64,000 bases of DNA from Microbaculum marinisediminis (GTDB lineage: Bacteria; Pseudomonadota; Alphaproteobacteria; Rhizobiales; Tepidamorphaceae): positions 186,001 to 250,000 of the forward strand of contig NZ_JALIDZ010000007.1 in assembly GCF_025397915.1 (NCBI RefSeq), given 5' to 3'. Both the position numbers and the translations under genes were made by a program. Below the pieces are notes generated by a model that searched no databases, had not been told where the DNA came from, and saw nothing but the letters and a program-made list of their open reading frames with translations. Below are positions 4,003 to 50,690 of the stretch, piece after piece; positions within the stretch are counted from its first letter, which is position 1, and every line of letters starts with the position of its first letter.

Positions 4003-4033
4003 GGGCCGCTTGTCGCAGGCCGGCCGCGCCGCC

Positions 4034-10500: not shown

Positions 10501-10663
10501 GGCGGCGGCGCGGGTATCGGTCGGCATGACCGTGTTCGGCGGCATGCTGATGGCCACCATCCTCGGCGTCGTCTTCATCCCCGTGCTCTACGTCGCCTTC
10601 CAGTCGGCGCGCGAGCGCATCAACCGCAAGTCCGCACCGCCGGCGCCCGAGGCGGCCGACTAG
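7529..10663 (+). CDS. RND multidrug efflux transporter, HAE-1 family
   Basis: A 1044-residue proton-driven pump with the AcrB architecture: one N-terminal helix, a large porter/docking loop, a membrane bundle, and the same arrangement repeated. The paired aspartates of the proton relay appear in helix 4 ([18 protein letters not shown]), and a lysine partner occurs in the second half ([15 protein letters not shown]). N-terminal [14 protein letters not shown] is the family opening. It is directly fused in operon to the adaptor gene. Its stop codon overlaps the stop of the convergent cytochrome gene in the shared tetramer CTAG (10660-10663). Confidence 0.93.
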
Positions 10664-11148: not shown

Positions 11149-11229
11149 TCTCGCCTGGAGCCCGATTAGTCTCGTTGGACCGGCGGGAAGTATAGCGCAG
11201 CGACAGGCCGCCAGAAACGCGGAGCGAAG

Positions 11230-11661: not shown

Positions 11662-11676
11662 GGTGTCTCCCCCTGT

Positions 11677-12945: not shown

Positions 12946-12946
12946 G

Positions 12947-25815: not shown

Positions 25816-26979
25816 CTATGAATCCAGCAGTTTGTTCGCCGCTTTCGGCGACAGCCGCTGCTTGGCGTCCTCGGTCGGCTGCCTGGTGAAGCCTTTCGCA
25901 TCGGCCGTTTCCTCGAAATCGCGTTTGATCGCGACCGGGCTCGACACGTAGGCGGTCACCAGTTCGGCGAGCGACCGCAACGCGTGCATGTGGATGCGCT
26001 CGTAGCCGTGCGAAGCGTCGACGCCGAAGGTGATGAGCGCGGTGCGGACATCGGCACCGGCTTCGATGGCGCTCGCCGAATCCGACCGGTAGTAGCGGAA
26101 CACGTCCTTCTGGAAGCGGATGTCGTTGGTCCGGCACAGCTCCACGAGCTTCTTGGTGAGGTGATAGTCGAACGGGCCGGTCTGATCGGCCATGGCGATG
26201 GTCACGCCGAACTCGGCTGAATTCTGACCCGGTGCCGTCGTGCCGTTGTCGACGGTAACCATGGAGGCGATGTCGGAGGTGAGGATCGACGACGCGCCGA
26301 CGCCGACCTCTTCGGCGATCGTGAACAGCCAGTGGATGTCTACAGGCGTGTCCGTATCCTCGTCCTGCAGCGCCTTCAGGGCGGCAAGCATCACCGCCAC
26401 GCCGGCCTTGTTGTCGAGGTGGCGCGAGACGATGAAACCGTTGTCGAGGAATTCCGGTTGCGGGTCGATCGCGACGATGTCGCCGACGTCGATGCGGAGC
26501 TTTTCCAGATCGGCCGCGTCGCGGGCGAGCGCGTCGACGCGCATCTCCACGTAGTCCCAGCCGACCGGCATCTTGTCGACCTGGTCGTTGTAGGTGTGGC
26601 CCGAAGCCTTGAGCGGCAGAATGGTGCCGCGGTAGCCGCCCTTCTCGGCGAACACGGTCGCCCGTGCGCCCTCGGCGAAGCGGGCCGACCAGTGTCCGAT
26701 CGGAACGACCGCGAGGCGGCCGTTCTCCTTCAACGCTTTCACCTGGGCGCCGAGCGTATCGAGATGGGAGACGATGGCCCGTGCGCCCTGCTGCTTCCGG
26801 CCTGGCCGGATCGCGCGGATGGCACCGCGCCGGGTCATCTCGACGTCGAGCCCGAGCTTTTCCAGTTCCGTGGATACGAACCGGACGACCGGATCGGTGT
26901 ATCCCGTCGGGCTGGGGATATCGAGAAGTTGCTTCAGGATTTCGGAGATGTAGTCCGCGTCGATCGCTAGCCGTGACAT
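25816..26979 (-). CDS. M42-family peptidase of the NAGGN osmolyte cluster
   Basis: A 387-residue co-catalytic metallopeptidase-fold protein. Metal-ligand segments are VSHLDTLGAQVKAL, VSRHLDNKAGVAVMLAAL, the catalytic TIAEEVGVGASS and VTVDNGTTAPGQN, with a late His in DASHGYERIHMHAL. It is the third member of the conserved trio with asnO and ngg, and this subfamily is known only from that context. Its role is unproved: it may hydrolyse the dipeptide osmolyte or a precursor. The gene begins three bases after the stop of ngg. Confidence 0.9.
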   Translation of the reverse strand: MSRLAIDADYISEILKQLLDIPSPTGYTDPVVRFVSTELEKLGLDVEMTRRGAIRAIRPGRKQQGARAIVSHLDTLGAQVKALKENGRLAVVPIGHWSARFAEGARATVFAEKGGYRGTILPLKASGHTYNDQVDKMPVGWDYVEMRVDALARDAADLEKLRIDVGDIVAIDPQPEFLDNGFIVSRHLDNKAGVAVMLAALKALQDEDTDTPVDIHWLFTIAEEVGVGASSILTSDIASMVTVDNGTTAPGQNSAEFGVTIAMADQTGPFDYHLTKKLVELCRTNDIRFQKDVFRYYRSDSASAIEAGADVRTALITFGVDASHGYERIHMHALRSLAELVTAYVSSPVAIKRDFEETADAKGFTRQPTEDAKQRLSPKAANKLLDS

Positions 26980-26982
26980 CGA

Positions 26983-28815: not shown

Positions 28816-28824
28816 GGTCCACCT

Positions 28825-34011: not shown

Positions 34012-35103
34012 ATGGAAAAGTTAGCCCTTCGAACCGAGGGGGTGACCGCGCGCTCCGGAAGAGCGGAACGCGGTGAACAGGTGATCGCGGTTCTCGCGCC
34101 GATGAGCGGATCGGCCGGGATCTGGGGGCCGTCCTGCATTTCGTGCGCACAGATCGCGGTGGCGGAGGTCAACGAGGAGGGCGGCATCGCCGGCTCGCGG
34201 CTGGTGCCCTATTTCCTCGATTCCGATGACGGAAACGTGAGCGCGCTGGAAGCCGAGATCGCCGCCCTGATCCAGGAAAAGGCGATCGCGGCGATTGTCG
34301 GCATGAATGTCAGCTCGGTGCGCCAGCGCCTCAACAAGATCGTCGCCGGCCGCATACCCTATGTCTACACGCCGCTCTACGAGGGCAACGAGCATTCCCC
34401 CAACGTCTTCGCCATCGGCGAGACGCCCGCCGACCAGCTCGAGCCGGCGATCCGTCACCTGACCGAGACGCTGAAGGTGCGGAACTGGGCGCTGATCGGC
34501 AACGATTATGTCTGGCCGCGCTCCTCCCACGCGGTTGCGCGAAAGCGCATCGGCGAATGCGGCGGCGCGGTGGTTTTCGACGGATACGTCCCGTTCGGCC
34601 TGAAGAACGCCGAGTGGCTGGCGGAAAGGATCGCCCGGGCAAAACCGGACATCGTGCTGGTTTCGCTGGTCGGCCAGGACGCGGTGGAGTTCAACCGGGC
34701 CTTCGGGGCCATGGATCTGGACCGCAGGATGTTCCGCCTGTCGACCGCCGTCGACGAGAACGTGCTGCTGGCCACCGGTGAGGAGAACACCAAACGGCTC
34801 TTCGTGGCGTCGGGCTACTTCTCCGCGCTGAAGACCGACCCGAACGAGGCCTTCAAGGAGCGCTACTGCGCCAGCCACAACACCCATCCGCCGGTTCTCA
34901 ACGCCCTCGGCCAGTCGCTCTACGAAGGCGTTCATTTCTATGCGGAAATGCGGGCCAACCAGGTCCGCGGCCGCGGTCCGGGGCCGATCCGCTACCGTAG
35001 CGCCCGCTCAGGCACCTACCTCTCCAACGACCGCAAGGACCTGACGATCTACCTCTCCCGCGCCGACGGCCACCAGTTCGCCATCCTCGGCGAGCTCGCC
35101 TGA
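34012..35103 (+). CDS. AmiC-like amide/urea-type ligand-binding protein without a leader
   Basis: A 363-residue type I periplasmic-binding-fold protein. VIAVLAPMSGSAGIWGPSCISCAQIAVAEVNEEGGIAG, VGMNVSSVRQRLNKIVAGRIPYVYTPLYEG and VVFDGYVPFGLKNAEWLAERI resemble the AmiC/UrtA/FmdD branch. The N-terminus (MEKLALRTEGVTARSGRAERG) is charged and lacks any hydrophobic leader, so the protein should stay in the cytoplasm, as AmiC does when it senses amides for the Pseudomonas amidase operon. No ANTAR-type AmiR partner is nearby; the divergent MarR is the only regulator. It is separate from the exported receptor at 37151. Confidence 0.85.
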   Translation: MEKLALRTEGVTARSGRAERGEQVIAVLAPMSGSAGIWGPSCISCAQIAVAEVNEEGGIAGSRLVPYFLDSDDGNVSALEAEIAALIQEKAIAAIVGMNVSSVRQRLNKIVAGRIPYVYTPLYEGNEHSPNVFAIGETPADQLEPAIRHLTETLKVRNWALIGNDYVWPRSSHAVARKRIGECGGAVVFDGYVPFGLKNAEWLAERIARAKPDIVLVSLVGQDAVEFNRAFGAMDLDRRMFRLSTAVDENVLLATGEENTKRLFVASGYFSALKTDPNEAFKERYCASHNTHPPVLNALGQSLYEGVHFYAEMRANQVRGRGPGPIRYRSARSGTYLSNDRKDLTIYLSRADGHQFAILGELA

Positions 35104-37150: not shown

Positions 37151-38389
37151 ATGACTAGCATCAACAGGCGTTCGGTGCTCAAGGGGGGCGTCGTCCTGAC
37201 GGTAGGTGCGCTGGCGGCACCCTCGATCGGCGGCCGCGCGCTGGCGGCGGACACGATCAAGCTCGGCTCGATCCTCGATACATCGGGCATCTTCGATGCC
37301 TACGGCAAGCCGATGGACATGGCCATGCGGCTCGCGGTCGACCAGATCAACGCGGCCGGCGGCCTCAACGGGCAGCAGATCGAGGTCGTGTCCTACGACA
37401 CCCAGTCGGACATGGCGCTCTACACCCAGTACGCCCAGCAGCTGACCCGCAAGGACAAGACCGACGTCGTCCACGGCGGCATCCTGTCGGCCTCGCGCGA
37501 GGCGATCCGCCAGATCCTGCGCAAGGCCAAGATGCCGTATTTCTACAACGTGCTCTACGAGGGCGGCGTCTGCGACCGCAACATCGTCGTGACGGGCGTC
37601 ACGCCGGCCCAGCAGGTGGAGGTGCTGGTTCCCGCCGCGATCAAGAAATGGGGCCCGAAGGTCTACATCCTGGCGGCCGACTACAATTACGGCCAGATCA
37701 CCGCGCGCTGGATGGAGAAATACGCCAAGGATGCCGGTGGCGAGGCCGTCTCGACCGATTTCTTCCCGCTCGACGTCGCCGACTTCGGCTCGGCCATCGC
37801 CAAGATCCAGCAGGCCGCGCCCGACGTGATCCTGTCGGCGCTGGTTGGCGGCAACCATCTGTCGTTCTACCGCCAGTGGGCGGCCTCCGGCATGAAGGAC
37901 AAGATCCCGCTGGCCTCGACGACGCTGGGCGTCGGCAACGAGCACAAGGTGCTGACCCCGGAGGAAGGCAACGGCATCCTGGTCGCCTACAACTACGCCC
38001 CGGCGATCGAGACGCCCGAGAACCAGGCCTTCCAGAAGGCGTGGACCGATAAGTACGGCGACACCAGCCTGATCCACGAGATCGCCGTCTCCAACTACCA
38101 GGGCATCCAGGTCTGGGCCGAGGCGGTCCGCCAGGGCGGGGGAACCGGATCCGAGGCGATCACCTCGGCGATCGAGGGCGGGCTCTCCATCGTCGGGCCC
38201 GGCGGCAAGGTGACGATCGATCCCAAGACCCATCACGCGACCCTCGACGTCCATTTGATGGAGTTCGAGAACCAGCAGATGAAGGTCCTGGAGAACTTCG
38301 ACCAGCGCCCGCCGATCGACACCCAGGCAGTGTGCGATCTGCAGGCAAATCCGGACGACAACACCCAGTACGAGATCAAGATCGACTGA
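37151..38389 (+). CDS. Exported substrate-binding protein of the second Liv-type importer (urea/amide type)
   Basis: A 412-residue binding protein with a Tat-like leader (INRRSVLKGGVVLTVGALAAPSIGGRALA). The mature part starts DTIKLGSILDTSGIFDAYGKPM and continues with type I fold motifs: QIEVVSYDTQSDMALYTQYAQQL, GILSASREAIRQILRKAKMPYFYNVLYEGG, VLVPAAIKKWGPKVYILAADYNYG. The YNxLYEGG and ADYNYG phrases place it near UrtA/FmdD/AmiC proteins, pointing to an amide or urea-like ligand. The likely permease genes begin only after a 609-base gap filled with repeats. Confidence 0.88.
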   Translation: MTSINRRSVLKGGVVLTVGALAAPSIGGRALAADTIKLGSILDTSGIFDAYGKPMDMAMRLAVDQINAAGGLNGQQIEVVSYDTQSDMALYTQYAQQLTRKDKTDVVHGGILSASREAIRQILRKAKMPYFYNVLYEGGVCDRNIVVTGVTPAQQVEVLVPAAIKKWGPKVYILAADYNYGQITARWMEKYAKDAGGEAVSTDFFPLDVADFGSAIAKIQQAAPDVILSALVGGNHLSFYRQWAASGMKDKIPLASTTLGVGNEHKVLTPEEGNGILVAYNYAPAIETPENQAFQKAWTDKYGDTSLIHEIAVSNYQGIQVWAEAVRQGGGTGSEAITSAIEGGLSIVGPGGKVTIDPKTHHATLDVHLMEFENQQMKVLENFDQRPPIDTQAVCDLQANPDDNTQYEIKID

Positions 38390-38998: not shown

Positions 38999-39865
38999 GT
39001 GGACCTGGCCGGCGTCATAGCCATCGAGATCGTCTATTCGATCGCCATGCTGGTGCTGATCAGCGCCGGGCTGGCCGTCGTCTTCGGCATGATGCGGGTC
39101 ATCAACCTGGCCCACGGCGAGTTCATGATGATGGGTGGCTACGCCACCATCGTCGCCGCCAAGGCCGGAATCAATGTCTATGTCGCGATGCTGATCGTCG
39201 CCCCGCTCGTCGTCGGCGTCATCGGCCTGATCGTCGAGAGGCTGGTGATCCGCTTCCTCTACGGGCGGCTGATCGACACGATGCTGGCGACCTGGGGACT
39301 CAGCCTGTTCTTCATCGGCGCGGCGACCATGATCTTCGGCAACACCACGACCGGGATCTCGCCGCCGATTTCCGGCTTCGCGCTCGGCGACTACCAGGTC
39401 AACGGCTACAACCTGTTCATCGTGCTGGTGGCGGCGGTGATCCTGATCGCCATGTACGCGGCGCTGTCGCTGACCCGCTTCGGCCTGATCGCGCGCGGCG
39501 CCATGCAGCGCCCCGACATGGCCTCGGCGCTCGGCTACGATCCCGACCGCATCTACATGCTGACCTTCTTCGCCGGCTCCGCGCTGAGCGGGCTTGCCGG
39601 CGGCATCCTCGCGCCGCTGGTCGGCCTGGTGCCGACGACGGGGGCGACCTACATCGCCAAGGCCTTCATCACGGTGATCTCCGGCGGCGCGTCGGTGATC
39701 GCCGGGCTTGCGAGCTCTGCCACCCTGTTCGGCCTGATCTCGCAGTCCTTCACCTTCCTGTTCACGCCGGTCGTCGGCGAGGTGGCGCTGCTGGTCGCCG
39801 CCGTCGTCCTGCTCAGGCTCCTGCCGCAGGGCATTACCGGGCGCTTCTTCAAGGGTGGCATGTGA
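38999..39865 (+). CDS. Liv-type ABC permease (LivH/UrtB family), second importer
   Basis: A 288-residue membrane protein with about eight helices. MMRVINLAHGEFMMMGGYATI (about residues 30-50) and the late ISGGASVIAGLASSATLFG mark the LivH/UrtB branch. GTG 38999 is preceded by GAGGTGAAG at a good distance. It pairs with the LivM-like permease whose ATG overlaps its stop (TGATG). Unlike the binding protein, it is separated from its receptor gene by repeats, so it may be driven by its own promoter or by read-through. Confidence 0.9.
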   Translation: MDLAGVIAIEIVYSIAMLVLISAGLAVVFGMMRVINLAHGEFMMMGGYATIVAAKAGINVYVAMLIVAPLVVGVIGLIVERLVIRFLYGRLIDTMLATWGLSLFFIGAATMIFGNTTTGISPPISGFALGDYQVNGYNLFIVLVAAVILIAMYAALSLTRFGLIARGAMQRPDMASALGYDPDRIYMLTFFAGSALSGLAGGILAPLVGLVPTTGATYIAKAFITVISGGASVIAGLASSATLFGLISQSFTFLFTPVVGEVALLVAAVVLLRLLPQGITGRFFKGGM

Positions 39866-40908
39866 TGGTGGCGTCGGAGTTCAAGAGCGCGATCACCGTC
39901 CTCGTCGTCGCCGGGATCCTGTTCGTCGTCGCCCCGGCGGTGATCGAGACCTACACGCTGACGGTGCTGATCATCTACGGCATGCTTGCGCTCAGTCTCG
40001 GGCTGATCTGGGGGTTCGGCGGCATCCTCTGCTTCGGCCAGGCCGCCTTCTTCGGTCTCGGCGCCTACACCTACGCCATCGCCGCCATCAATATCGGCGA
40101 GAGCACGGTGCCGTTCCTGCTCGGCATCGCCGTTCCCTTCGCCTTCGCCTTCGTCCTCGGCGCCATGCTGTTCTACGGCCGCCTGTCGGACGTCTATCTC
40201 GGCGTGATCACCCTTGTGGTGACCCTGATCTTCTTCAAGTTCATGAACTCGACGGCCGGGCCGGAATACGTGATCGGCACCGCCCGGCTCGGCGGCTTCA
40301 ACGGCATACCCGGCTTCCAGACGCTGAATGTGCCCGGCGATCCCGGCGCCTACATCTACGACGTCGACTACTACTGGTTCTGCGTCGTCGCGATCCTGAT
40401 CGTCTACGCGCTGGTGCGCTGGCTGCTGGCCAGCCCCTTCGGCCGCATCGCCGTTGCCATCCGCGAAAACGAGTCCCGCGCCGAGCTGATGGGCTACGAC
40501 GTGCGCATCCGCAAGACCGTGCTGTTCGCGGTCGGCGGCGCCATCGCCGGCCTGGCGGGCACGCTGTTCGCCAACTGGGCCGAGATCGTCACGCCCGGCA
40601 TGTTCTCGCTGGCCCAGTCGGCCGAGATCATCATCTGGTGCATCGTCGGCGGCCTCGGCACGCTGATCGGACCGGTCATCGGCGCGATGGCGCTCGCCTA
40701 TCTCAAGTTCCTGCTCGGCCAGCAGGACGTCGTCGACAACATGATGATCCTCGGGCTGATCCTGACGCTGTCGGTGCTGTTCCTGCCGCGCGGCATCGTG
40801 CCGAGCATCGGCCTGGCGATATCCCGGGCGATGCCGAAGCGCCGCCGGCGGCGGCGCCATCGCCGCCCGCGCCGGGTCGCCGAGGAAGCCGAGGCGCTCA
40901 ATGGCTAG
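39865..40908 (+). CDS. Liv-type ABC permease (LivM/UrtC family), second importer
   Basis: A 347-residue polytopic protein: LSLGLIWGFGGILCFGQAAFFGLGAYTY, VAIRENESRAELMGYDVRIRKT and the ATPase-contact loop IVGGLGTLIGPVIG are typical. The extreme C-terminus carries an unusual block of about 12 consecutive or near-consecutive Arg/His residues (KRRRRRRHRRPRR) after the last helix, which would lie on the cytoplasmic face. The stop overlaps the following ATPase gene by eight bases. Confidence 0.9.
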   Translation: MVASEFKSAITVLVVAGILFVVAPAVIETYTLTVLIIYGMLALSLGLIWGFGGILCFGQAAFFGLGAYTYAIAAINIGESTVPFLLGIAVPFAFAFVLGAMLFYGRLSDVYLGVITLVVTLIFFKFMNSTAGPEYVIGTARLGGFNGIPGFQTLNVPGDPGAYIYDVDYYWFCVVAILIVYALVRWLLASPFGRIAVAIRENESRAELMGYDVRIRKTVLFAVGGAIAGLAGTLFANWAEIVTPGMFSLAQSAEIIIWCIVGGLGTLIGPVIGAMALAYLKFLLGQQDVVDNMMILGLILTLSVLFLPRGIVPSIGLAISRAMPKRRRRRRHRRPRRVAEEAEALNG

Positions 40909-41614
40909 CATCCTCGAGACCCGCGGGCTCACCATGCAGTTCGGCGGCGTCACCGCCGTCGACAATGTCGACTTCAGCCTGGAGCGCCACGAGCTGCGCT
41001 GCCTGATCGGGCCGAACGGGGCGGGCAAGAGCACGTTCTTCAAGTGCCTCACGGGGCAGCTCAAGCCGTCCGCCGGCCACGTCTTCATCGAGAACGAGGA
41101 GACCACCGGCTGGGACCCGCACGCCATCGCCCGGCTCGGCATCGGCATCAAGACGCAGGTGCCCAGCGTCATGGACGGCCTGAGCGTGCGCGAGAACATC
41201 TGGCTCGCCGCCTACCGCACCCACGGGCGCGAGCGGGCGCGCCGCTTTGCGGACGACGCCATCGACCGGCTGTCGCTCGGCGACATCGCGTCGGCGACCG
41301 TCGGCCGCCTGTCGCACGGCGAGCGCCAGCGCGTCGAACTCGGCATCGTCATCTCGATGGAGCCGTGGCTGATCCTGCTCGACGAGCCGGCCGCCGGCAT
41401 GACAGGCGAGGAGGTCGCCCGCATGGCCGAGCTCATCGGCGAGCTGAACGCGGAGGCCGCGATCGTCGTGGTCGAGCACGACATGCAGTTCATCCGCTCG
41501 ATCGCCAAGACGGTCACCGTCTTCAACCAGGGCCGAATCCTGGCGCAGGACGACGTCGACACCATCATGACCGACCCGCGCGTGCGCGACGTCTACCTGG
41601 GCAAGAAGGTCTGA
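40901..41614 (+). CDS. Liv-type ABC ATPase (LivG/UrtD family), second importer
   Basis: A 237-residue ATPase: Walker A GPNGAGKSTFFKCLTG, Q-loop region GIGIKTQVPSVMDGLSVREN, signature LSHGERQRVELGIVI, Walker B LILLDEPAAGMTGEEV and switch VVVEHDMQFIRSIA. The SHGE signature and KTQVP Q-loop are typical of the UrtD branch, supporting a urea/amide-type transporter. Five bases separate its stop from the following ATPase-amidase frame. Confidence 0.92.
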   Translation: MASILETRGLTMQFGGVTAVDNVDFSLERHELRCLIGPNGAGKSTFFKCLTGQLKPSAGHVFIENEETTGWDPHAIARLGIGIKTQVPSVMDGLSVRENIWLAAYRTHGRERARRFADDAIDRLSLGDIASATVGRLSHGERQRVELGIVISMEPWLILLDEPAAGMTGEEVARMAELIGELNAEAAIVVVEHDMQFIRSIAKTVTVFNQGRILAQDDVDTIMTDPRVRDVYLGKKV

Positions 41615-41619: not shown

Positions 41620-44079
41620 ATGCTGCAGCACAGCCCGCCGGAACACGCACCCGCCGACCATCCCGCCCTCGAGGTTCGGTCGCTGGCGGCGGGCTACGGG
41701 CGCATTCCCGTCCTGCACGGCATCGACCTGGCCGTCGGGTACGACGAGATCGTCGGCATCCTCGGCCACAACGGCATGGGCAAGTCGACGCTTCTGAAGA
41801 CCGTCATGGGCTTCCTGCCCGCCCGCGGCGGCCATGTCGCGCTCGCCGACGAGGACATCACCCGGCTCAAGCCGCACGACCGGGCGCTGCGCGGGCTCGG
41901 CTACATCCCCCAGGGCCGCGGCATCTTCCCGAAGCTGTCGGTCGCCGAGAACCTGCGGCTGGCCTGGCACGACCACGGCGATGCCAGCGAGGCGGATGCG
42001 CTCGAGCGCATGCTCGCCGACTTTCCGCGCCTCAAGCCCCTGCTCGGCCGCGAGGGCGGCGCGCTGTCGGGCGGCGAGCAGCAGCTGCTGGCGCTCGCCC
42101 GCGGGCTGATGGGCGATCCCTGGTTCCTGCTCCTCGACGAGCCGACCGAGGGCATCCAGCCCTCGATCATCGACGAGATCGAGGAGACGCTCCTGAGGCT
42201 GCGCAGGCAGCGCGGCCTCACCGTCCTGCTGGTGGAGCAGAACTTCGAGTTCCTGAGCCTCCTGTCCGACCGCGTCCTGGTGATGGAGCGCGGCGCGATC
42301 ACCGCCGAGTTCGGCCGCGAGGCGGTGCGCGACGTCAGCCAGATCGAGGCGTTCCTGGGCTTCGGCGCCGTGCGCCAGACCCGCCGCGCGCCCGCACATG
42401 CGCCCGCGCCCGCGCTTGCAGGGCAGCCCCCGGGGCCGGCCCGCGCCGGGCCGCTCCATGGGGCGCCGCCCGTCCAATCGATGCCGGCCGAACGGCCCGG
42501 CCAACAGAAATCCCCCGCGCCCGGGAGCGACCGTGCGTCGCCGGCGCGGCCAATGGAGGCGTTCATGAGCGTCAGACGACCGACCGTGGAACAGATGCGC
42601 GACATCGTGTCGGGCCTGCACATGTCGATGAGCGACCGCGAGATCCTCGACTACCTCACGATCATGGAGGACACGTTCAAGGCCTACGACGCCGTCGACG
42701 CGATGCCCGACAACCTGCCGAAGGTGAAGTATCCGCGCACCCCCGGCTATCGTCCGTCCGCCGCCGAGAACCCGATGAACGCCTGGTACGTGAAGGCCGA
42801 GGTGAAGGGCGCCGCCTCCGGCCCGCTCGAGGGCAGGAAGGTCGTGCTCAAGGACAACGTGTGCCTGGCCGGCGTGCCGATGATGAATGGTGCCTCGACG
42901 CTGGAGGGCTACACGCCGGACGTCGACGCCACCGTCGTCACCCGCATCCTCGATGCCGGCGGCACCATCGTCGGCAAGGCCCACTGCGAGTATTTCTGCC
43001 TCTCCGGCGGCAGCCACACCAACGCCACCGGCCCGGTCCACAACCCCTACCGGCTCGGCTACTCCGCCGGCGGCTCTTCGTCCGGGTCGGGCGCGCTCGT
43101 CGGCGCCGGCGAGGTGGAGATGGCGATCGGCGGCGACCAGGGCGGCTCGATCCGCATGCCCGCCTCCTTCTGCGGCGCCTACGGCATGAAGGGCACCCAC
43201 GGCCTCGTTCCCTATAGCGGCATCATGCCGATCGAGCCGACCATCGACCACGCCGGCCCGATCACCGCCAACGTGCGCGACAACGCGTTGCTGCTGGAGG
43301 TGATTGCCGGCGAGGACGGTCTCGATCCGCGCCAGTACTGCCCGAAGGTCGACCGCTACACCCAGGCCGTCGGCATGGGCGTCTCGGGCATGCGCATCGG
43401 CGTGGTCCGGGAGGGCTTCGGCCGCCCCGAAGCCGAGGCCGACGTCGACGACCGGGTGCGCGCGGCAGCCGAGAAGTTCCGCTCGCTCGGTGCGGCGGTC
43501 GAGGAGGTGTCGGTGCCGATGCACCTGACCGGCCCGGCAATCTGGACGCCGATCGCGCTCGAGGGCCTGACCGACATCATGATGCACGGCAACGGCTTCG
43601 CCACCGGCTGGGAGGGGCTCTACGTCACCAGCCTGCTCGACTACCACGCCAACTGGCGCGCGCGCGCCAACGAGCTGTCGAAGAGCCTGAAGATCTCGAT
43701 GTTCGTCGGCGAGTACATGCAGAAGCACTATCGCGGCCACTACTACGCCAAGGCGCAGAACCTGAGCCGCGTTCTGCGGGCCGCCTACGACGACGCGCTG
43801 TCGCGCTACGACGTGCTGATCATGCCGACCACGCCGATGAAGGCGCAGCCGTTGCCCGCGCCCGACGATCCGCTGGCGAACTACATCCAGCGCGCCTTCG
43901 AGATGATCGGCAACACCGCCCCGTTCGACGCCTCGGGCCATCCGGCGATGAGCGTGCCGGTCGGCCTCAGCCAGGGCCTGCCGGTGGGCATGATGATCAT
44001 CGGCAGGCACTACGCGGAATCGACCATCTACCGCGCCGCCGGTGCCTTCGAGTCGCTGGGAGACTGGCGCGCCATGTAG
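41620..44079 (+). CDS. LivF/UrtE-type ATPase continuous in frame with an amidase (819 residues)
   Basis: One uninterrupted frame encodes two complete enzymes. Residues 1 to about 250 are a LivF/UrtE ATPase: Walker A GHNGMGKST from residue 49, YIPQGRGIFPKLSVAENL, signature LSGGEQQLLALARGL from 149, Walker B LLLDEPTEGIQPS and VLLVEQNFEFLSLLSD, ending IEAFLGFG where ordinary LivF proteins end. Residues about 250-315 are a Pro/Ala/Arg/Gln low-complexity linker. Residues 316-819 are an amidase signature enzyme. I checked the linker codon by codon (42340-42570) and found no stop. A good internal ribosome site before 42565 means the amidase may also be made separately. A lost stop codon or sequencing error is the alternative to a true fusion. 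Confidence 0.75.
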   Translation: MLQHSPPEHAPADHPALEVRSLAAGYGRIPVLHGIDLAVGYDEIVGILGHNGMGKSTLLKTVMGFLPARGGHVALADEDITRLKPHDRALRGLGYIPQGRGIFPKLSVAENLRLAWHDHGDASEADALERMLADFPRLKPLLGREGGALSGGEQQLLALARGLMGDPWFLLLDEPTEGIQPSIIDEIEETLLRLRRQRGLTVLLVEQNFEFLSLLSDRVLVMERGAITAEFGREAVRDVSQIEAFLGFGAVRQTRRAPAHAPAPALAGQPPGPARAGPLHGAPPVQSMPAERPGQQKSPAPGSDRASPARPMEAFMSVRRPTVEQMRDIVSGLHMSMSDREILDYLTIMEDTFKAYDAVDAMPDNLPKVKYPRTPGYRPSAAENPMNAWYVKAEVKGAASGPLEGRKVVLKDNVCLAGVPMMNGASTLEGYTPDVDATVVTRILDAGGTIVGKAHCEYFCLSGGSHTNATGPVHNPYRLGYSAGGSSSGSGALVGAGEVEMAIGGDQGGSIRMPASFCGAYGMKGTHGLVPYSGIMPIEPTIDHAGPITANVRDNALLLEVIAGEDGLDPRQYCPKVDRYTQAVGMGVSGMRIGVVREGFGRPEAEADVDDRVRAAAEKFRSLGAAVEEVSVPMHLTGPAIWTPIALEGLTDIMMHGNGFATGWEGLYVTSLLDYHANWRARANELSKSLKISMFVGEYMQKHYRGHYYAKAQNLSRVLRAAYDDALSRYDVLIMPTTPMKAQPLPAPDDPLANYIQRAFEMIGNTAPFDASGHPAMSVPVGLSQGLPVGMMIIGRHYAESTIYRAAGAFESLGDWRAM
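42555..42567 (+). promoter_or_regulatory. Internal ribosome binding site before the amidase domain
   Basis: GGAGG at 42555-42559 lies five bases before ATG 42565 (MSVRRPTVEQM). The same bases encode the end of the linker. The spacing is ideal for independent initiation, so a free amidase of 504 residues could be produced from the same message as the fusion. Confidence 0.55.
42565..44079 (+). CDS. Amidase signature family hydrolase (alternative internal start of the fused frame)
   Basis: If translated from ATG 42565 this is a 504-residue amidase. The Ser-cisSer-Lys triad is visible: Lys in GRKVVLKDNVCLAG, the serine-rich SAGGSSSGSGALVGAG, and the cis-serine/nucleophile loop GGDQGGSIRMPASFCGAYGMKGTHG. 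It hydrolyses a carboxamide to acid and ammonia; the substrate is not predictable. The acyl-CoA synthetase gene follows at 44105 and would suit activation of the released acid. This entry is the same DNA as the C-terminal part of the 41620-44079 frame. Confidence 0.75.
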   Translation: MSVRRPTVEQMRDIVSGLHMSMSDREILDYLTIMEDTFKAYDAVDAMPDNLPKVKYPRTPGYRPSAAENPMNAWYVKAEVKGAASGPLEGRKVVLKDNVCLAGVPMMNGASTLEGYTPDVDATVVTRILDAGGTIVGKAHCEYFCLSGGSHTNATGPVHNPYRLGYSAGGSSSGSGALVGAGEVEMAIGGDQGGSIRMPASFCGAYGMKGTHGLVPYSGIMPIEPTIDHAGPITANVRDNALLLEVIAGEDGLDPRQYCPKVDRYTQAVGMGVSGMRIGVVREGFGRPEAEADVDDRVRAAAEKFRSLGAAVEEVSVPMHLTGPAIWTPIALEGLTDIMMHGNGFATGWEGLYVTSLLDYHANWRARANELSKSLKISMFVGEYMQKHYRGHYYAKAQNLSRVLRAAYDDALSRYDVLIMPTTPMKAQPLPAPDDPLANYIQRAFEMIGNTAPFDASGHPAMSVPVGLSQGLPVGMMIIGRHYAESTIYRAAGAFESLGDWRAM

Positions 44080-44104: not shown

Positions 44105-45889
44105 ATGACCATCCTGTCGGAATCGATGGCGGGACAACTGTCCGTCAGCCTGTTCGAGCGCAACGACGCCGCCCAGGCGTCGGGCGGGGCGGTCGTCGCG
44201 CCGGTCGACGGCAAGTCCTACGTGTCCGGCGACCGGTCGGTGCCGCTGCGCCGGGTGACGATTCCGCAGATGTTCGCCGAGACGGTGTCGCGCTTCGGCC
44301 CGCGCGAGGCCGCCGTCTTCCGCGCGTCGAACCGGCGCTTCACCTACTACGAGCTCGACCGCGAGATCGACCGGCTGGCCAGCGGCCTGCTCGCGCTCGG
44401 CCTGGAGAAGGGCGACCGCATCGGCATCTGGTCGCCCAACCGCCCGGAGTGGCTGATCACCCAGTTCGCCACCGCGCGGATCGGCCTGATCATGGTCAAC
44501 ATCAATCCGGCCTATCGGCTGTCCGAGGTCGAGTACGCGCTGAACAAGGTCGGCTGCAAGGCGCTGATCGCCGCCGACAGGTTCAGGAAATCCGACTATC
44601 TCGGCATGCTCGCCACCCTGGCGCCGGAACTCGCCGCCTGCCGGCCCGGCGCGCTCAGGGCCGAGCGGCTGCCGGCGCTGCGCAGCGTCGTCCGGCTGGG
44701 CTCGGAGAAGACGCCGGGCATGTTCAACTTCGAGGAGGTCTGCGAGATCGGCGGGCCGGCGCAGCAGATGCGTCTCGACACCGTGACCCGCGCGCTCGAT
44801 CCCGACGATCCGATCAACATCCAGTTCACGTCGGGCACCACCGGCTCGCCCAAGGGGGCGACGCTGACGCACTACAACATCGTCAACAACGCCTGGTTCA
44901 CGGTCCGGACCATGGGATTCAGCGAATCCGACCGGCTGTGCATCCCGGTGCCGCTATACCACTGCTTCGGCATGGTGCTGGGCACGCTCGGCTGCGTCAC
45001 GGCCGGCGCGTCCATGGTGTTTCCCGGCGAAGCCTTCGACGCCGGCGAGACGCTGGCGGCGGTCTCGGCCGAGCGCTGCACCGCCGTCTACGGCGTGCCG
45101 ACCATGTTCATCGCCATGCTCGACCAGCCGGATTTCCGGTCGCACGACGTCTCCAGCCTGCGCACCGGCATCATGGCCGGCGCGCCGTGTCCGGTCGAGG
45201 TGATGCGCCGCGTCGTCCGGGACATGCACATGCCCGAGGTCACCATCGGCTACGGCATGACCGAGACGAGCCCGATTTCGTTCCAGTCCGCCATCGACGA
45301 CGGGCTGGAGGAACGCGTCTCCACGGTCGGCCGCATCCATCCGCATGTGGAGGTGAAGATCGTCGACGAAACGGGCGCGATCGTCGACGTCGGCGTCGGC
45401 GGCGAGCTGTGCACCCGCGGCTATTCGGTCATGCGCGGTTACTGGAGCGACGAGGAACGCACCCGCGAGGCGATCGATGTCGGCGGCTGGATGCATACAG
45501 GCGACCTCGCCGAGATCGACGCGCGCGGCTATTGCAGCATTGTCGGCCGGGTCAAGGACATGGTCATCCGCGGCGGCGAGAACATCTATCCGCGCGAGAT
45601 CGAGGAATTCCTCTACCGCCATCCCAAGATCGCCGAGGTGCAGGTCTTCGGCGTGCCCGACGAGAAATACGGCGAGGAGCTGGCAGTCTGGATCGTGCTG
45701 CAGCCGGGCGAGAGCGCCGGCGAGGACGAGATCCGCGACTACTGCAAGGGCGCGATCGCCCACTACAAGGTGCCCCGCTACATCCGCTTCAAGGACGCCC
45801 TGCCGATGACCGTCACCGGCAAGCCGCAGAAGTTCCTGATGCGCGAGGAAATGGCCGAGGAGCTGCAGCAGGCGGGCGGCGCCCGCTAG
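44105..45889 (+). CDS. AMP-forming acyl-CoA synthetase
   Basis: A 594-residue ANL-superfamily ligase. The AMP-binding motif is [18 protein letters not shown] (about residue 239), followed by [20 protein letters not shown], the adenylate motif [27 protein letters not shown] region and the C-terminal catalytic lysine in [11 protein letters not shown]. The type is like medium-chain or fatty acyl-CoA ligases (FadD3-like). It starts 25 bases after the amidase with GGGAGGAC as ribosome site, so it is likely co-transcribed and acts on the product of the amidase. It is convergent with the hydrogenase operon. Confidence 0.92.
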
Positions 45890-45911: not shown

Positions 45912-47198
45912 CTAGGTCGACGGCCCGGCCGCCGGGGGCGTCCCCGCGCCGTCCTCGATCAGGTTCTCGGCGACGAGTTCCACGAGGCCGCCGATCCCGC
46001 GGTCCCAGCGCCAGTGCGCCTTGCTCTCGTCCATGGTCAGGCGGCAGTTGGAGCAGCCCGATACCATCGTCGTCGCTCCGGTCCGCTCGACCTGATCCAT
46101 CTTGATCTTGAATACCTGGTGGCGCAGGTCTGCGGCTCGCCCGATCGCCTGCACGCCGCCACCGCCGCCGCAGCACCAGTTGTAGTCGGCGGTCGGCGCC
46201 ATCTCGCGGAAGTCCTGCGCGAAGCCGTCGAGCAGGTAGCGCGCCGTCTCGGTCGCGCCGCCGCGCCGTGAGATCTGGCAGGCGTCGTGATAGGTGATCG
46301 GTTCCTCGACCGGCTTCAGCTTCAGCTTGCCCTGGCGTTTGAGCTCGGCGACGAACTCGGAGATGTGCAGCACCTCGTAGGGCAGTTCGCGGCCGAGAAT
46401 GTTGGCCGCGCCCCAGCGCAACACGCCATAGGCGTGGCCGCATTCGGGAATGATGACGGTCTTCGCGCCGATGCTCTCGGCGGCGTCGGTGATGCGCAGG
46501 ATCATCGTCCTGGCGATGTCCGCCTTGCCGGCGAGATAGCCGAAATTGGTCGCCTCGTAGCCCTTGGTGCTGAGCGTCCAGTCGGCCCCGGCGTGATTCA
46601 GGATCTTGGCCATCGCCACCACCGACTCGGGGTACTTCATCACCTCGATCGACGAGACGGTGAGCAGGATGTCGGCCTTGTCCTTGTCGACGACGATATC
46701 GACCTCGTGCTCGTCGGCGAGCCAGTCGATGCGGTCGGTGAGCTTCTCCGGCGTCACGCCGAGGGGGCTGCCGTGGTCGCGCGCGTTGTCGGCGGCCGCC
46801 AGTAGGTCCTCCGGTCCGAGCCCGGCCTTGACGAAGGCCTGCCGGGCGCCGGCGACGATCGAGGCGATGTCGATTCCCATCGGGCAGACCGTCGTGCAGC
46901 GTCCGCACATGGTGCAGGTGTCGAACAGCAGTTCCTCCCACTGGCGCAGGTCCTGCTCGGTGACCCGCGGCGCCAGACCGAGCCAGCTCAGCGGCCATTT
47001 CTGGCGGCGATAGGCCTTGGCGATCGGAAACAGCTTGTAGGCCGGGGTGTGCCGCGGGTCGCCGGACGCCTCGTGGAAATGACAGGCGTCGGCGCACTGG
47101 CCGCAATGGACGCAGCCTTCCAGGTAGCTGACCAGGTGCTCCTCGGTATGGGCGAGGAAGGTGCGGGTGGCGGCGTCGACGTCGATGGCTTCGGCCAT
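45912..47198 (-). CDS. isp2: HdrD-like iron-sulfur protein Isp2 of the membrane-linked hydrogenase
   Basis: A 428-residue cytoplasmic protein with two [4Fe-4S] motifs (CVHCGQCADACHF near residue 30; CTMCGRCTTVCPMG near 95) and two CCG domains (DACQISRRGG and YNWCCGGGGG; SGCSNCRLTM). This is the layout of heterodisulfide reductase subunit D and of Isp2 in Thiocapsa-type hydrogenases, where it passes electrons from hydrogen through the Isp1 cytochrome to thiols, sulfur compounds or quinone. It is the last gene of the operon. The start is ATG 47198. Confidence 0.9.
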   Translation of the reverse strand: MAEAIDVDAATRTFLAHTEEHLVSYLEGCVHCGQCADACHFHEASGDPRHTPAYKLFPIAKAYRRQKWPLSWLGLAPRVTEQDLRQWEELLFDTCTMCGRCTTVCPMGIDIASIVAGARQAFVKAGLGPEDLLAAADNARDHGSPLGVTPEKLTDRIDWLADEHEVDIVVDKDKADILLTVSSIEVMKYPESVVAMAKILNHAGADWTLSTKGYEATNFGYLAGKADIARTMILRITDAAESIGAKTVIIPECGHAYGVLRWGAANILGRELPYEVLHISEFVAELKRQGKLKLKPVEEPITYHDACQISRRGGATETARYLLDGFAQDFREMAPTADYNWCCGGGGGVQAIGRAADLRHQVFKIKMDQVERTGATTMVSGCSNCRLTMDESKAHWRWDRGIGGLVELVAENLIEDGAGTPPAAGPST

Positions 47199-47209
47199 GG
47201 TCGTGGCTC

Positions 47210-48955
47210 CTATCGGACCCGGATCTGCATCAGTTCCTCGCCGTCCGGATCGACGACGTGGACGGCGCAGGCGATGCAGGGATCGAAACTGTGGATGGTG
47301 CGCTGGATCTCCAGCGGCTGCTTGGGATCGTGCAGCGTATGCCGGTCCATCAGCGCGGCCTCGTAGGGCCCGGGATTGCCCTGGGCGTCGCGCGGACCCG
47401 CGTTCCAGGTCGACGGCACGACGGCCTGATAGTTGTCGATCTTGGTGTCCTTGATGACGATCCAGTGGGCGAGCGCGCCGCGCGGGGCCTCCATGAAGCC
47501 GACGCCGCGGGCCTCCTTCGGCCAGGTCGACGGCTCCCATTTGACCGGATTGTGGACGGTGAGATCGCCCGCCTTGATGTTGACGACGAGAGCGTCGAGC
47601 CAGACCTGCATCTGGTCGACGACGATCTTGCTTTCCAGGGTCCGCGCCGCCGTGCGCCCCATGGTGGAGAACATAGCGGTGAGCGGCAGGTCGAGCTTGG
47701 CCAGCGCCTGTTTGGCCAGCGCCTGCGTCGGCTCGTGGCCGCTGGCGTACAGCATCAGCACGCGGGCGAGCGGGCCGACCTCCATGACGTTGCCCTTCCA
47801 GCGCGGCGACTTCAGCCACGAATAGCTCTGCTCGACCTCGAGCTGCTCGTAGGGCGGTTGCGGCCCGGTGTAGTTCAGCGCGGTCTCGCCGTCATAGGGG
47901 TGCAGGCCCGCGTCCTTGCCGCCCGAATAGTAGTACCAGGAGTGGGACACGAATTCCTGGATCTCCTCCGGCGCGGTCATGTCGACCGGATGGATCGTCG
48001 ACAGGTCGCGGTTCAGGATCGCGCCGGCGGGGATCAGCCAGCTCGACGGATCGTCCATGCCTGTCTCGGGGAAGTCGCCGTAGGTCAGGAAATTGCCGAC
48101 GCCTTCGCCGCGCGCGAACCAGTCCTTGTAGAACGAGGCGATCGCCAGCGTGTCCGGCAGGTAGACCTGGTCGACGAAGTCGCGCATGCGCTGGATCACC
48201 GACTTGATCGTGCCGAGGCCGGCCATGTTGACGGCGGTCATCTGGGCCCCGCCGGCATCGAGCGTGTCGATGCTGATGGGCGAGGGCGCGCCGCCGACGA
48301 GGAAGTTCGGGTGCGGGTTCTTGCCGCCGAAGATCGTGTGGATCTGCACCACCTCGCGCTGCCAGGCGAGCGCCTCGAGATAGTGGGCGACGGCCATCAG
48401 GTTGGCCTCCGGCGGCAGCTTGTAGCCGGGATTGCCCCAGAAGCCGTTGGCGAAGATGCCGAGCTGTCCGCCCTCGACGAACGCCTTCAGCTTCGTCTGC
48501 GTGTCGGCGAAGTAGCCGGGGCTCGACTTCGGATAGCTGGAGATCGACTGCGCCAGCTGCGACGTCGCCGCCGGGTCGGCGCTCAGCGCCGAGACGACGT
48601 CGACCCAGTCGAGCGCGTGCAGGTGATAGAAGTGCATGACGTGGTCGTGCACGTACTGCGCCGCGATCATCAGGTTGCGGATCAGCTGGGCGTTCGGCGG
48701 GATCGTGTAGCCCAGCGCGTTCTCCACCGCGCGCACCGAGGCGATGCCGTGCACCAGCGTGCAGACGCCGCAGATCCGCTGGGCGTAGGCCCAGGCGTCG
48801 CGCGGGTCGCGGCCCTTCAGGATCAGCTCGATGCCGCGCACCATGGTGCCCGACGAGTAGGCCCCGGCGATGGTGTTGCCGGCGCCGAGCTCGGCCTCGA
48901 TCCTGAGATGCCCCTCGATCCGGGTGATCGGGTCGACGACGATGCGTTCGTTCAT
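47210..48955 (-). CDS. hynL: [NiFe]-hydrogenase large subunit, Isp-linked group 1 enzyme
   Basis: A 581-residue catalytic subunit. The N-terminal nickel motif is RICGVCTLVHG (about residue 60) and the C-terminal motif is DPCIACAVH. Fifteen residues (VVDPDGEELMQIRVR) follow the conserved histidine and should be removed by the maturation protease at 51092. GTIAG/NPGYKLPPEANLMAVAHYLEALAW is typical of group 1 uptake enzymes. The ATG overlaps the Isp1 stop as ATGA. Gene order is small subunit, isp1, large subunit, isp2. Confidence 0.95.
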   Translation of the reverse strand: MNERIVVDPITRIEGHLRIEAELGAGNTIAGAYSSGTMVRGIELILKGRDPRDAWAYAQRICGVCTLVHGIASVRAVENALGYTIPPNAQLIRNLMIAAQYVHDHVMHFYHLHALDWVDVVSALSADPAATSQLAQSISSYPKSSPGYFADTQTKLKAFVEGGQLGIFANGFWGNPGYKLPPEANLMAVAHYLEALAWQREVVQIHTIFGGKNPHPNFLVGGAPSPISIDTLDAGGAQMTAVNMAGLGTIKSVIQRMRDFVDQVYLPDTLAIASFYKDWFARGEGVGNFLTYGDFPETGMDDPSSWLIPAGAILNRDLSTIHPVDMTAPEEIQEFVSHSWYYYSGGKDAGLHPYDGETALNYTGPQPPYEQLEVEQSYSWLKSPRWKGNVMEVGPLARVLMLYASGHEPTQALAKQALAKLDLPLTAMFSTMGRTAARTLESKIVVDQMQVWLDALVVNIKAGDLTVHNPVKWEPSTWPKEARGVGFMEAPRGALAHWIVIKDTKIDNYQAVVPSTWNAGPRDAQGNPGPYEAALMDRHTLHDPKQPLEIQRTIHSFDPCIACAVHVVDPDGEELMQIRVR

Positions 48956-49611
48956 ATCTTCACCCCCCGGCGGCCGTAGAGCACGCCCGTCTCGCCGCGG
49001 GTCAGGAAGACCAGGAAGGCGTGCATGAGCTTTCCGAACGGAAACCAGATCAGGAACAGCGCGACGCTGAGCATGTGGACCGCGAGCAGCGTCTCGTAGG
49101 GCGCCCACAGATGGCTGACGGCGACGAGGCCGGTGACGACCGGCAGCGTCGTCACGAACCAGCTCCAGTAGTCGTTGACGGTCGACAGCAGCCGGACCAC
49201 CGGGTTCGTCAGCCGCCGCCCCAGCGCGGCGAGCAGCGAGGCGAGCGTGATCACCGAGACGACGGAGACGACGCCGCTGGGCAGGTTCGGCCAGGACACC
49301 CCGAACAGGCCGCGCCACACCAGGATGTGCTGGGCGAGGCCGAAGACGATGACAGCGAGCCCGATATGGAACACGTAGCCGTTAATCGTCGCGAACAGCG
49401 CGGTGCGGAGATAGGGCTTTGCCGGCCACAGGTGCCGTACGAAGCCGCCCGCCGCCAGCACGGCGCGCGACGGCACGCCGGGCCGCGCCACCGACCGGTC
49501 GCGCGCCCATGGCAGCAGCAGCAGCGACGACAGCCGCCACAGCACGCCGAACAGGAACACGGCGAAGGCGAACTCCAGCGCGGGGCCGCGCGCGAAATCG
49601 AGAAGCGTCAT
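48952..49611 (-). CDS. isp1: NarI-like cytochrome b, Isp1
   Basis: A 219-residue membrane protein with five predicted helices and the resemblance to nitrate reductase gamma subunits that defines Isp1. Histidines suited to ligate two b haems lie in NGYVFHIGLAVIVFGLAQHI and VAVSHLWAPYETLLAVHMLS. It should take electrons from the periplasmic hydrogenase across the membrane to Isp2. Both ends overlap neighbours as ATGA (49608-49611; 48952-48955), so the three genes are translationally coupled. Confidence 0.9.
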   Translation of the reverse strand: MTLLDFARGPALEFAFAVFLFGVLWRLSSLLLLPWARDRSVARPGVPSRAVLAAGGFVRHLWPAKPYLRTALFATINGYVFHIGLAVIVFGLAQHILVWRGLFGVSWPNLPSGVVSVVSVITLASLLAALGRRLTNPVVRLLSTVNDYWSWFVTTLPVVTGLVAVSHLWAPYETLLAVHMLSVALFLIWFPFGKLMHAFLVFLTRGETGVLYGRRGVKI

Positions 49612-50690
49612 GACGGTGTCTCCCCGGACGGCTGCGTCCGTTTCGCTGCCTGCGCCCGGCGCCGCCGGGCAAGCAGGGCGCTGGCCACGCCGACGGCGGC
49701 GCCTGCGACCGCGGCGCCGCCGACGATCGCGGCGTTGTTGCGCGTGGTGGCGGACAGTGGCCGGTAGAAGCCGCCCTTGTCCCAGAAGTCCGGCTCGGAG
49801 CAGCCGAGGCAACCATGCCCTGACTGGATCGGGAACGAGACGCCGCCGTTCCACTTCAGCGTGGCGCAGGCGTTGTAGGTGACCGGCCCCTTGCACCCGA
49901 CCTCGTAGAGGCACCAGCCCTGGCGCGCGCCCTCGTCGTCGAAGCGCTTGGCGAACAGGCCCTTGTCGTAGAACGGCCGACGGTAGCAGCGATCGTGGAT
50001 CGAGTCGCCGAAGAACGCCTTCGGGCGGTTGAGGTGGTCGAGTTCGGGCAGCCGGTTGAAGGTGACGAGATAGGCGATGGTCCCGGCCATCGCCTCGGCG
50101 ATCGGCGGGCACCCGGAGATGTTGATGATCGGCTTGTCGGTGATGATCTCGGACACCGCCATCGCGCCCGTCGGGTTGGGCCTGGCGTGCGGGATTCCGC
50201 CAAAGGCGGCACAGGTCCCGACCGAGATCACCGCCAGCGCATGTTCCGCGGACTCCTTGAGCACATCGAGATTGGTCTTGCCGGCGCTGGTCGAATAGAC
50301 GCCGCCGTCACGCGTCGACACCGAGCCGTCGACGACGATGACGTACTTGCCCTCGTTCTCCTTCATCGCCGCCAGCCGCGCCTCTTCCGCCGCGGCGCCG
50401 GAAACGGCCATCAGCGTCTCGTGATAGTCGAGCGAGATCAGATCGAAGATCATGTCCTCGATCGTCGGGCTGAAGGAGCGCGTCAGCGATTCCGTGCAGC
50501 CGGTGCATTCCTGGAACGACAGCCAGATCACCGACTGCCGCCGCGTGTTCGCCAGCGCTTCCGCCATGGTGCGTGAGGCCGCCGGCGGCAGCGCCATCGC
50601 GCTCGCCAGATAGGCGGTGTATTTCAGCAGCGCACGGCGCGATACGCCGCGCCGGGCGAGCAGGTCGCCGACCGTTTCGTTCGCGGGCAT
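49608..50690 (-). CDS. hynS: [NiFe]-hydrogenase small subunit, Tat-exported, Isp-linked group 1 enzyme
   Basis: A 360-residue iron-sulfur subunit. A twin-arginine leader (GVSRRALLKYTAYLASAMALPP) directs the folded dimer to the periplasm. The proximal cluster cysteines are in QECTGCTES, GTCAAFGG and ISGCPP; the others in HDRCYRRPFYDKGLF, GWCLYEVGCKGP, YNACATLKWN and GHGCLGCSEPDFWD. The proximal motif is CTGCTES, not the CTCCSES of oxygen-tolerant group 1d enzymes, in line with an Isp-type (group 1e) assignment. A C-terminal helix (AAIVGGAAVAGAAVGVASALL) anchors it in the membrane. Confidence 0.95.
   Translation of the reverse strand: MPANETVGDLLARRGVSRRALLKYTAYLASAMALPPAASRTMAEALANTRRQSVIWLSFQECTGCTESLTRSFSPTIEDMIFDLISLDYHETLMAVSGAAAEEARLAAMKENEGKYVIVVDGSVSTRDGGVYSTSAGKTNLDVLKESAEHALAVISVGTCAAFGGIPHARPNPTGAMAVSEIITDKPIINISGCPPIAEAMAGTIAYLVTFNRLPELDHLNRPKAFFGDSIHDRCYRRPFYDKGLFAKRFDDEGARQGWCLYEVGCKGPVTYNACATLKWNGGVSFPIQSGHGCLGCSEPDFWDKGGFYRPLSATTRNNAAIVGGAAVAGAAVGVASALLARRRRAQAAKRTQPSGETPS

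Follow-up and report, generated by a model that had tools for sequence, protein, structure and literature searches.

Does a gene of Microbaculum marinisediminis that joins an ATP-binding cassette (ABC) importer ATPase to an amidase encode a real two-domain protein, or has the stop codon between two ordinary neighbours been lost or miscalled? The gene occupies positions 41620-44079 of the window, by which we mean the whole 64,000-nucleotide (nt) stretch that was analysed (NCBI RefSeq assembly GCF_025397915.1, contig NZ_JALIDZ010000007.1, positions 186,001 to 250,000 of the forward strand). A sequence-only reading of the window had described an unbroken frame leading from a LivF/UrtE-type ATPase through a Pro/Ala-rich linker of about 65 residues into a complete amidase signature enzyme. 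Translation bears this out on each point: the frame contains no internal stop and encodes 819 residues (88.0 kDa full length), the linker is open over 67 residues, and the amidase half scores 808.2 bits against the NCBIfam amidase model NF005565 (cut-off 545), with protein residues 316-818 covering model positions 1-505 of 506. Because the genome is GC-rich, one open linker of 67 codons proves little, and it is the relatives that decide the question.

We scanned the named genomes with the amidase and kept the best 80 of at least 530 relatives. Among these 80 loci, the amidase shares one frame with a relative of the window's ATPase in 57 (the fused loci), is preceded in the same order by the ATPase as a separate gene 22-73 nt upstream in 12, stands without such an ATPase within reach upstream in five (L145, L147, L158, L166 and L174), and lies too near a contig end to be classified in six (L097, L100, L121, L130, L131 and L170). 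Three of the fused loci (L132, L133 and L171), whose ATPase is truncated by the contig end, were used neither for the protein alignment nor for the ATPase tree. Genome searches with the fusion protein or its amidase part as query, at most 30 loci per search, gave 58 loci, the window included (L010 and L038-L094), of which 20 are fused, 12 are separate, 23 are without the ATPase and 3 are cut; this set overlaps the named loci (L103 and G043, for example), and the two sets of counts must not be summed. The amidase was detected at an E-value of 1e-150 in 35 of 397 genomes of the order, 44 of 385 of the class and 21 of 398 of the phylum, and at 1e-100 in 2 of 8 genomes of its own family. Order and class matches without an assigned locus include only three with an open frame of more than 780 codons (G309, G463 and G552:C13), and none of these holds an ATPase of the fusion kind in frame at the required 40% identity.

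Fused loci come from Alpha-, Beta- and Gammaproteobacteria and from one SAR324 genome, many of them in metagenome assemblies, and their record titles include Hyphomicrobiales, Rhizobiaceae, Rhodobacteraceae, Rhodospirillaceae, Burkholderiales, Comamonadaceae, Acidiferrobacteraceae, gammaproteobacteria and the SAR324 entry. Many of the carriers are bacteria of soil or sea, and cultured environmental strains with the fusion include Salinarimonas rosea DSM 21201, Lutimaribacter saemankumensis DSM 28010 and Aquibium carbonis B2.3. On the complete plasmid NZ_CP018077.1 of Sulfitobacter alexandrii (L175), the entire gene cassette described below lies at 2175-13133, and the annotation gives a single 2382-bp fused gene, WP_071974000.1, which is named only 'amidase', an example of how public annotation conceals the fusion. 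In the closest relative of the window, a genome of the same genus (G001), both halves occur at 87-91% identity on contigs C191 and C500; the assembly break falls within the linker, and this genome neither confirms nor contradicts the fusion. As in that case, low-complexity linker DNA may fragment the fusion gene in other draft genomes. The comparison of these loci strongly supports the joining of ATPase and amidase as a genuine fusion that is conserved in several proteobacterial classes.

The linker itself was analysed as coding DNA in 58 sequences, those of the window and the 57 fused named loci (3791 codons in total). Their lengths range from 31 to 123 codons and take 34 different values, every one of which keeps the frame. 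An in-frame stop, which the sequence-only reading had proposed looking for in relatives, occurs in none of the 58 linkers; the other two forward frames contain stops in 32 and 25 of them, and the reverse frames in 33, 41 and 37. When linkers of the AT-richer loci are shuffled, they stay open in only about 3-10% of cases (fractions of 0.028 for L109, 0.038 for L159, 0.073 for L119, 0.074 for L164 and 0.102 for L152). In all 24 pairs with amidase DNA more than 84% identical, many of which share members, nonsynonymous divergence (dN) in the linker is lower than synonymous divergence (dS), with a ratio of 0.2-0.7. Linker dN far exceeds amidase dN in 24 of 24 pairs and linker dS exceeds amidase dS in 19 of 24, which indicates a fast-evolving, weakly constrained linker. 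It is rich in Ala, Pro, Ser, Gly and Thr and aligns with difficulty. Since the pairwise linker alignments were guided by protein, their gap lengths are necessarily multiples of three; the unbiased evidence is that each linker as a whole keeps the frame.

Both domains of the fusion protein are intact in sequence. Pfam finds ABC_tran (99.8 bits) and Amidase at residues 392-803, and no other domain at an E-value of 0.001. The ATPase half is of the LivF/UrtE type, with an ABC_tran domain and residues invariant among 55 aligned fused proteins in columns that we take to be the Walker A, Q-loop, signature and Walker B motifs; it scores 254.1 bits against the UrtE equivalog model TIGR03410, below the cut-off of 285.8. 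In the amidase, K96, S171 and S195 are invariant in 12 of 12 fused amidases in one set and in 55 of 55 in the larger alignment. These positions are collinear with those of PDB entry 3a1k, and we assume them to form the Ser-cisSer-Lys catalytic triad. The domain therefore has the conserved active site of amidase signature enzymes, and catalysis has probably been retained. In a predicted model (55 sequences), the mean predicted local distance difference test score (pLDDT) is 71.8; most of the ATPase lies between 80 and 95 and residues 247-315 lie below 50, and the linker is predicted to be disordered.

The sequence-only reading had also noted a strong ribosome site, GGAGG at 42555-42559, ahead of an ATG at 42565. 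The site is present as described, and it proves to be a conserved feature of most fused loci. In every one of the 58, an ATG stands at the position that aligns with the start of the amidase or one codon earlier, and in 48 the predicted pairing with the 16S tail reaches -5 kcal/mol or lower (median -7.0 over the 58). Of 1717 other ATGs that lie in frame within the fused genes, 23% reach this value (median -2.5); at the amidase ATG of separate loci this holds for 12 of 12 (median -9.0). In a codon-shuffle control, the Shine-Dalgarno (SD) signal stands out at p 0.05 or less in 38 of the 58 loci, with the remaining 20 indistinguishable by shuffle. The peptides encoded by the ribosome site vary among groups (MEAF, TEAR, KEYP, QEAIY, ERMSY, PGGI and others), which suggests that selection keeps the DNA element rather than the encoded peptide. 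Around the internal ATG, 55 of 58 fused loci have weaker RNA structure than the other in-frame ATGs of the same gene have on average (mean folding -6.1 versus -9.7 kcal/mol; -5.2 in separate loci), a signal that may partly be composition, as the control ATGs lie in folded domains and the tested stretch is half linker. Rank tests on SD pairing and RNA structure overstate independence, the fused loci being mutually related. Given the conserved ATG, the SD pairing and the weak RNA structure, two products are probably made, the full fusion and, from the internal start, a free amidase with a calculated mass of 54.2 kDa.

Beyond what the sequence-only reading had seen, the fusion belongs to a conserved cassette that also encodes a flotillin and an acyl-CoA ligase, in the order receptor-like protein, flotillin, binding protein, two permeases, ATPase, ATPase-amidase and acyl-CoA ligase (Table 1). 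Among the best 80 named loci, 43 of the 44 fused loci with enough upstream DNA have a flotillin relative, versus none of 9 separate loci, and a ligase with more than 40% identity lies directly downstream in 50 of 52 readable fused loci versus none of 12 separate ones. A wide-flank set of 19 further loci (L175-L190 and L192-L194, of which 11 are fused and 8 separate; L191, L195 and L196 have no adjoining ATPase and were excluded) gives the same picture, with the flotillin in all 11 fused loci and none of the 8 separate ones, and the ligase in 8 of the fused loci and in no separate one. In L112, the only fused locus without a flotillin, the upstream DNA contains a masked stretch and other genes, and the binding protein was likewise not found. 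The separate locus L190, which has little upstream DNA, carries a distant ligase-like gene (30% identity) right behind the amidase. The receptor-like protein was detected in only part of the fused loci at the search depth used. Fisher tests on these associations overstate independence, the change between fused and separate being probably one event; we see the weight of the association in the cassette staying together across great divergence.

Table 1. Positions of the cassette genes and of the parts of the fusion gene in the window.
Feature	Position	Strand	Evidence
Receptor-like protein, periplasmic-binding fold	34012..35103	+	Pfam Peripla_BP_6/Peripla_BP_5; N-terminus without strongly hydrophobic signal stretch
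Flotillin/SPFH protein, one N-terminal membrane helix	35363..37003	+	Pfam Flot, Band_7; N-terminal hydropathy peak 3.36
Substrate-binding protein	37151..38389	+	Pfam Peripla_BP_6; best NCBIfam models urea binding proteins, below cut-off
Permease 1, LivH/UrtB-like	38999..39865	+	Pfam BPD_transp_2; TIGR03622 and TIGR03409 below cut-off
Permease 2, LivM/UrtC-like	39862..40908	+	Pfam BPD_transp_2; TIGR03727 and TIGR03408 below cut-off
First ATPase, LivG/UrtD-like, own stop	40901..41614	+	Pfam ABC_tran; TIGR03411 (UrtD) below cut-off
ATPase-amidase fusion	41620..44079	+	819 residues; single open frame; Pfam ABC_tran and Amidase
Second ATPase domain, LivF/UrtE-like, residues 1-248	41620..42363	+	Pfam ABC_tran 32-176; invariant motifs; pLDDT mostly 80-95
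Pro/Ala-rich linker, residues 249-315 (67)	42364..42564	+	0 of 58 linkers with in-frame stop; low pLDDT
Internal Shine-Dalgarno GGAGG	42555..42559	+	seen in sequence; predicted pairing -9.3 kcal/mol
Amidase domain, residues 316-819, own internal ATG	42565..44079	+	Pfam Amidase; NF005565; nearest solved structures 3a1k/3a1i
Acyl-CoA ligase (AMP-binding)	44105..45889	+	25 nt past the fusion; Pfam AMP-binding; NF009233 above cut-off

The receptor-like protein, to which we attach the label AmiC-like by assumption, is probably a cytoplasmic amide sensor. The flotillin start, an ATG at 35363, was chosen by us, and its frame is open from a TTG at 35258. The binding protein carries a stretch, RRSVLKGG, that we read as a twin-arginine-like signal. 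Variations on the cassette occur among relatives. In L111 a gene at 9519-10157, nicotinamidase-like by our reading, stands a few bases behind the fusion in place of the ligase, which could mean that the substrate there is a different amide. L178 has a further amidase of this family (about 50-55% identical) immediately behind the fusion, from 9820 onward, and another such amidase (also about 50-55% identical) lies upstream of the importer in separate Bradyrhizobium loci, for example in L163 near 718.

How the two arrangements are related was followed in trees of both halves. The amidase tree has 101 rows, with six loci without upstream DNA excluded and 26 of the 58 genome-search loci added by choice. 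It contains one clade of 66 rows, made up of 64 fused rows and two rows without the ATPase, with a Shimodaira-Hasegawa-like approximate likelihood ratio test (SH-aLRT) support of 99; the quick method and long branches elsewhere restrict finer claims. The two rows without the ATPase, L145 and L174, are apparent losses of the importer half within the fused clade. The ATPase tree has 90 rows, was rooted with four other ATPases from the genome of the window and came with long-branch warnings; in it the 20 separate rows form one group nested within the fused rows, with a support of 84. A single change between the fused and separate states would fit both trees, in either direction, and repeated independent fusions were set aside as unnecessary.

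From the gene content we consider it rather likely that the cassette encodes a branched-chain-amino-acid/urea-type importer for an amide, in which the second ATPase subunit bears the hydrolase of that amide on a flexible linker. As no stop lies between the domains, a ribosome that starts at the ATPase must continue into the amidase. Liv/Urt importers contain one copy of each of two ATPases, and one tethered amidase held at the membrane would thus be expected per transporter, with extra free amidase from the internal start that may pair with the tethered copy. The amide would be hydrolysed on entry, at the importer exit, which would keep its inside concentration low and make uptake one-way. Released ammonia would be assimilated as a nitrogen source, and the acid product would pass to the adjoining acyl-CoA ligase to give acyl-CoA for carbon. 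The flotillin may collect all these components in a membrane patch, and the receptor-like protein would probably sense the amide and control the operon. The fuller picture, a flotillin-organised patch in which the importer, the tethered and free amidase and the ligase jointly import, split and activate an amide to acyl-CoA, is one that we put forward tentatively, as possible but doubtful.

The substrate is likely to be an amide, judging by the amidase and by a receptor that we take to be AmiC-like. A urea importer of the UrtABCDE kind was considered and rejected, as the binding protein scores 222.2 against TIGR03407 (cut-off 492.75) and 336.2 against TIGR03669 (cut-off 494.8). Nitrile hydratase, a conceivable source of the amide, is present in 28 of 31 selected genomes that have the amidase (22 fused or linker-cut, 9 separate) versus 18 of 31 selected genomes that lack it (Fisher p 0.008), with control genomes that were hand-picked and not size-matched and a test that overstates independence; we take it as no more than a hint. 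Where the cassette is fused, its neighbourhood on the contig holds no strong nitrile hydratase match. Nitrile hydratase does occur near a separate amidase in two genomes (G557 and G654). One genome with the fused cassette, G044, also has a second, unfused amidase (68% identical) beside a nitrile hydratase alpha-subunit gene (contig C330, 48654-51119).

Several observations weigh against the importer with a tethered amidase. Of the 21 matching genomes among the 398 of the phylum draw, only that of the window has a fused locus, and the 15 new loci comprise six separate and nine without the ATPase; fusion is therefore a minority arrangement across the phylum. The separate-gene relatives show that fusion is not essential to an importer-amidase operon. 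The ligase is missing in 5 of the 63 fused loci with readable downstream DNA (L111, L112, L177, L178 and L179), the internal SD is weak in 10 of 58 fused loci (L105, L111, L113, L114, L115, L118, L124, L129, L134 and L146), and the amidase part is patchy in the predicted model. The binding protein and permeases score under every NCBI urea-transporter cut-off. Fusion, flotillin and ligase may have arrived jointly, in which case their association would be one event kept and not many independent ones, and the ATPase tree as rooted would favour one split of an existing fusion.

Three other accounts of the gene have to be set against these data. Two ordinary neighbour genes with a lost or miscalled stop, and former intergenic DNA between them, were the alternative offered by the sequence-only reading, and stops are indeed rare in a GC-rich genome whose internal ATG has a full ribosome site. 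The relatives contradict this account: the open frame is common to 57 of the best 80, no stop is found in 58 linkers even in the AT-richer loci where shuffled linkers seldom stay open, and the complete Sulfitobacter plasmid is likewise annotated with one gene. We regard it as highly improbable. The fusion might instead merely set expression, providing one amidase per importer and saving a start site with no benefit from tethering, and the linker may then be cut in the cell. A short change would suffice to fuse genes that stand as close and in the same order as in the 12 separate relatives, the Ala/Pro/Ser-rich linker changes rapidly, the internal start has been retained, and the ATPase tree permits one later split. 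Yet no reversion to adjacent separate genes is seen inside the fused clade of the amidase tree, none of the 58 linkers has gained a stop despite fast divergence, and the flotillin would be left without a reason; we think this account unlikely.

The remaining possibility is that the amidase domain acts mainly as a regulator, with an amide bound or hydrolysed there signalling stop or go to the ATPase. NrtC, the ATPase of a cyanobacterial nitrate importer, bears its added domain at the C-terminus, where it is related to a nitrate-binding protein. That large domain has a putative nitrate site and serves in regulation and not as an enzyme. Truncation of NrtC is reported to lead to ammonium-insensitive nitrate uptake (PMC6603209). 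NrtC thus offers a precedent for an importer ATPase with a regulatory domain. In the fusion, however, all 55 aligned proteins agree at each of the three active-site positions, which makes it probable that catalysis has been kept, and a long, variable, predicted-disordered linker suits a tether better than allosteric coupling. A mainly regulatory amidase seems to us quite unlikely, and an NrtC-type ATPase was rejected because the C-terminal part of the fusion matches Amidase only. The importer with a tethered hydrolase is our preferred reading.

We know of no characterised ABC importer that carries a catabolic enzyme for its own cargo in the ATPase subunit. Searches of open-licence PubMed Central papers, judged by titles and abstract openings, gave no description of an ATPase-amidase fusion or an amidase-flotillin operon, and as far as these searches reach the fusion is conserved and undescribed. 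Its closest counterparts are separate-gene importer-amidase operons of Bradyrhizobium (L155, L161, L163, L165, L168, L169 and L172) and of the Tistrella mobilis plasmid pTM2 (L176). These have a homologous binding protein, permeases, two ATPases and an amidase in identical order, but their ATPase has its own stop and neither a flotillin nor such an acyl-CoA ligase adjoins them. The amidase of PDB entries 3a1k/3a1i, presumably that of Rhodococcus sp. N-771, is homologous over residues 27-498 (481 bits) with collinear active-site positions; we take it to be a free enzyme, unlike that of the window, which is attached to an importer ATPase. UrtABCDE and Liv importers share the subunit make-up and provide the closest NCBI models, but the binding protein, permeases and ATPases of the window all fall below the urea cut-offs, and its second ATPase bears an enzyme.

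Amidase operons with ABC importer genes have been reported, and urtABCDE beside a formamidase has been taken as a sign of formamide uptake (PMC13209695). In the same source, Pseudomonas veronii Yu15 has acetamidase/formamidase operons in which amide hydrolase genes stand beside a urea-type, urtABCDE-like ABC importer, read there as a route of amide uptake; there the genes are separate and encode the aliphatic amidases AmiE and FmdA, and the part of the paper at hand mentions no fusion. Peptidase-containing ABC transporters (PCATs) such as PCAT1 also join a hydrolase to an ABC transporter and couple processing to transport (PMC6959990 and PMC8794836), but they export and cleave peptides by means of a fused peptidase, unlike an importer ATPase with a small-molecule amidase. 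A transporter of this class, marked by a peptidase domain and a fused transmembrane domain, was ruled out for the window, where only ABC_tran and Amidase were found and the highest 19-residue hydropathy of the fusion protein is 1.43. PII is reported to bind UrtE, and control of urea uptake to prevent futile hydrolysis (PMC6603209); a second ATPase of the UrtE type is therefore already known as a control point.

Two further gene groups of the window lie outside the cassette. On the minus strand at 25819-30600, a domain search found adjacent genes for an M42 peptidase, a GNAT/ATP-grasp protein and an asparagine-synthase-like amidotransferase, a trio that we take to resemble the N-acetylglutaminylglutamine amide osmolyte cluster. 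Convergent to the cassette, also on the minus strand at 45912-50690, lie genes for a NiFe hydrogenase small subunit (49608-50690) and an Fe-S/CCG protein (45918-47195), and the frames between them resemble, by our reading, a hydrogenase large subunit and a cytochrome.

If confirmed, the fusion would offer a natural case for testing the coupling of uptake to metabolism, and its in-frame internal start would give tethered and free forms of the enzyme from one gene. The cargo of bacterial flotillins is often unclear, and the near-strict co-occurrence of flotillin and fusion supplies a concrete client operon for these proteins. Should the importer, amidase and ligase indeed be gathered in a flotillin-organised patch, a bacterial flotillin would here serve a single catabolic operon.

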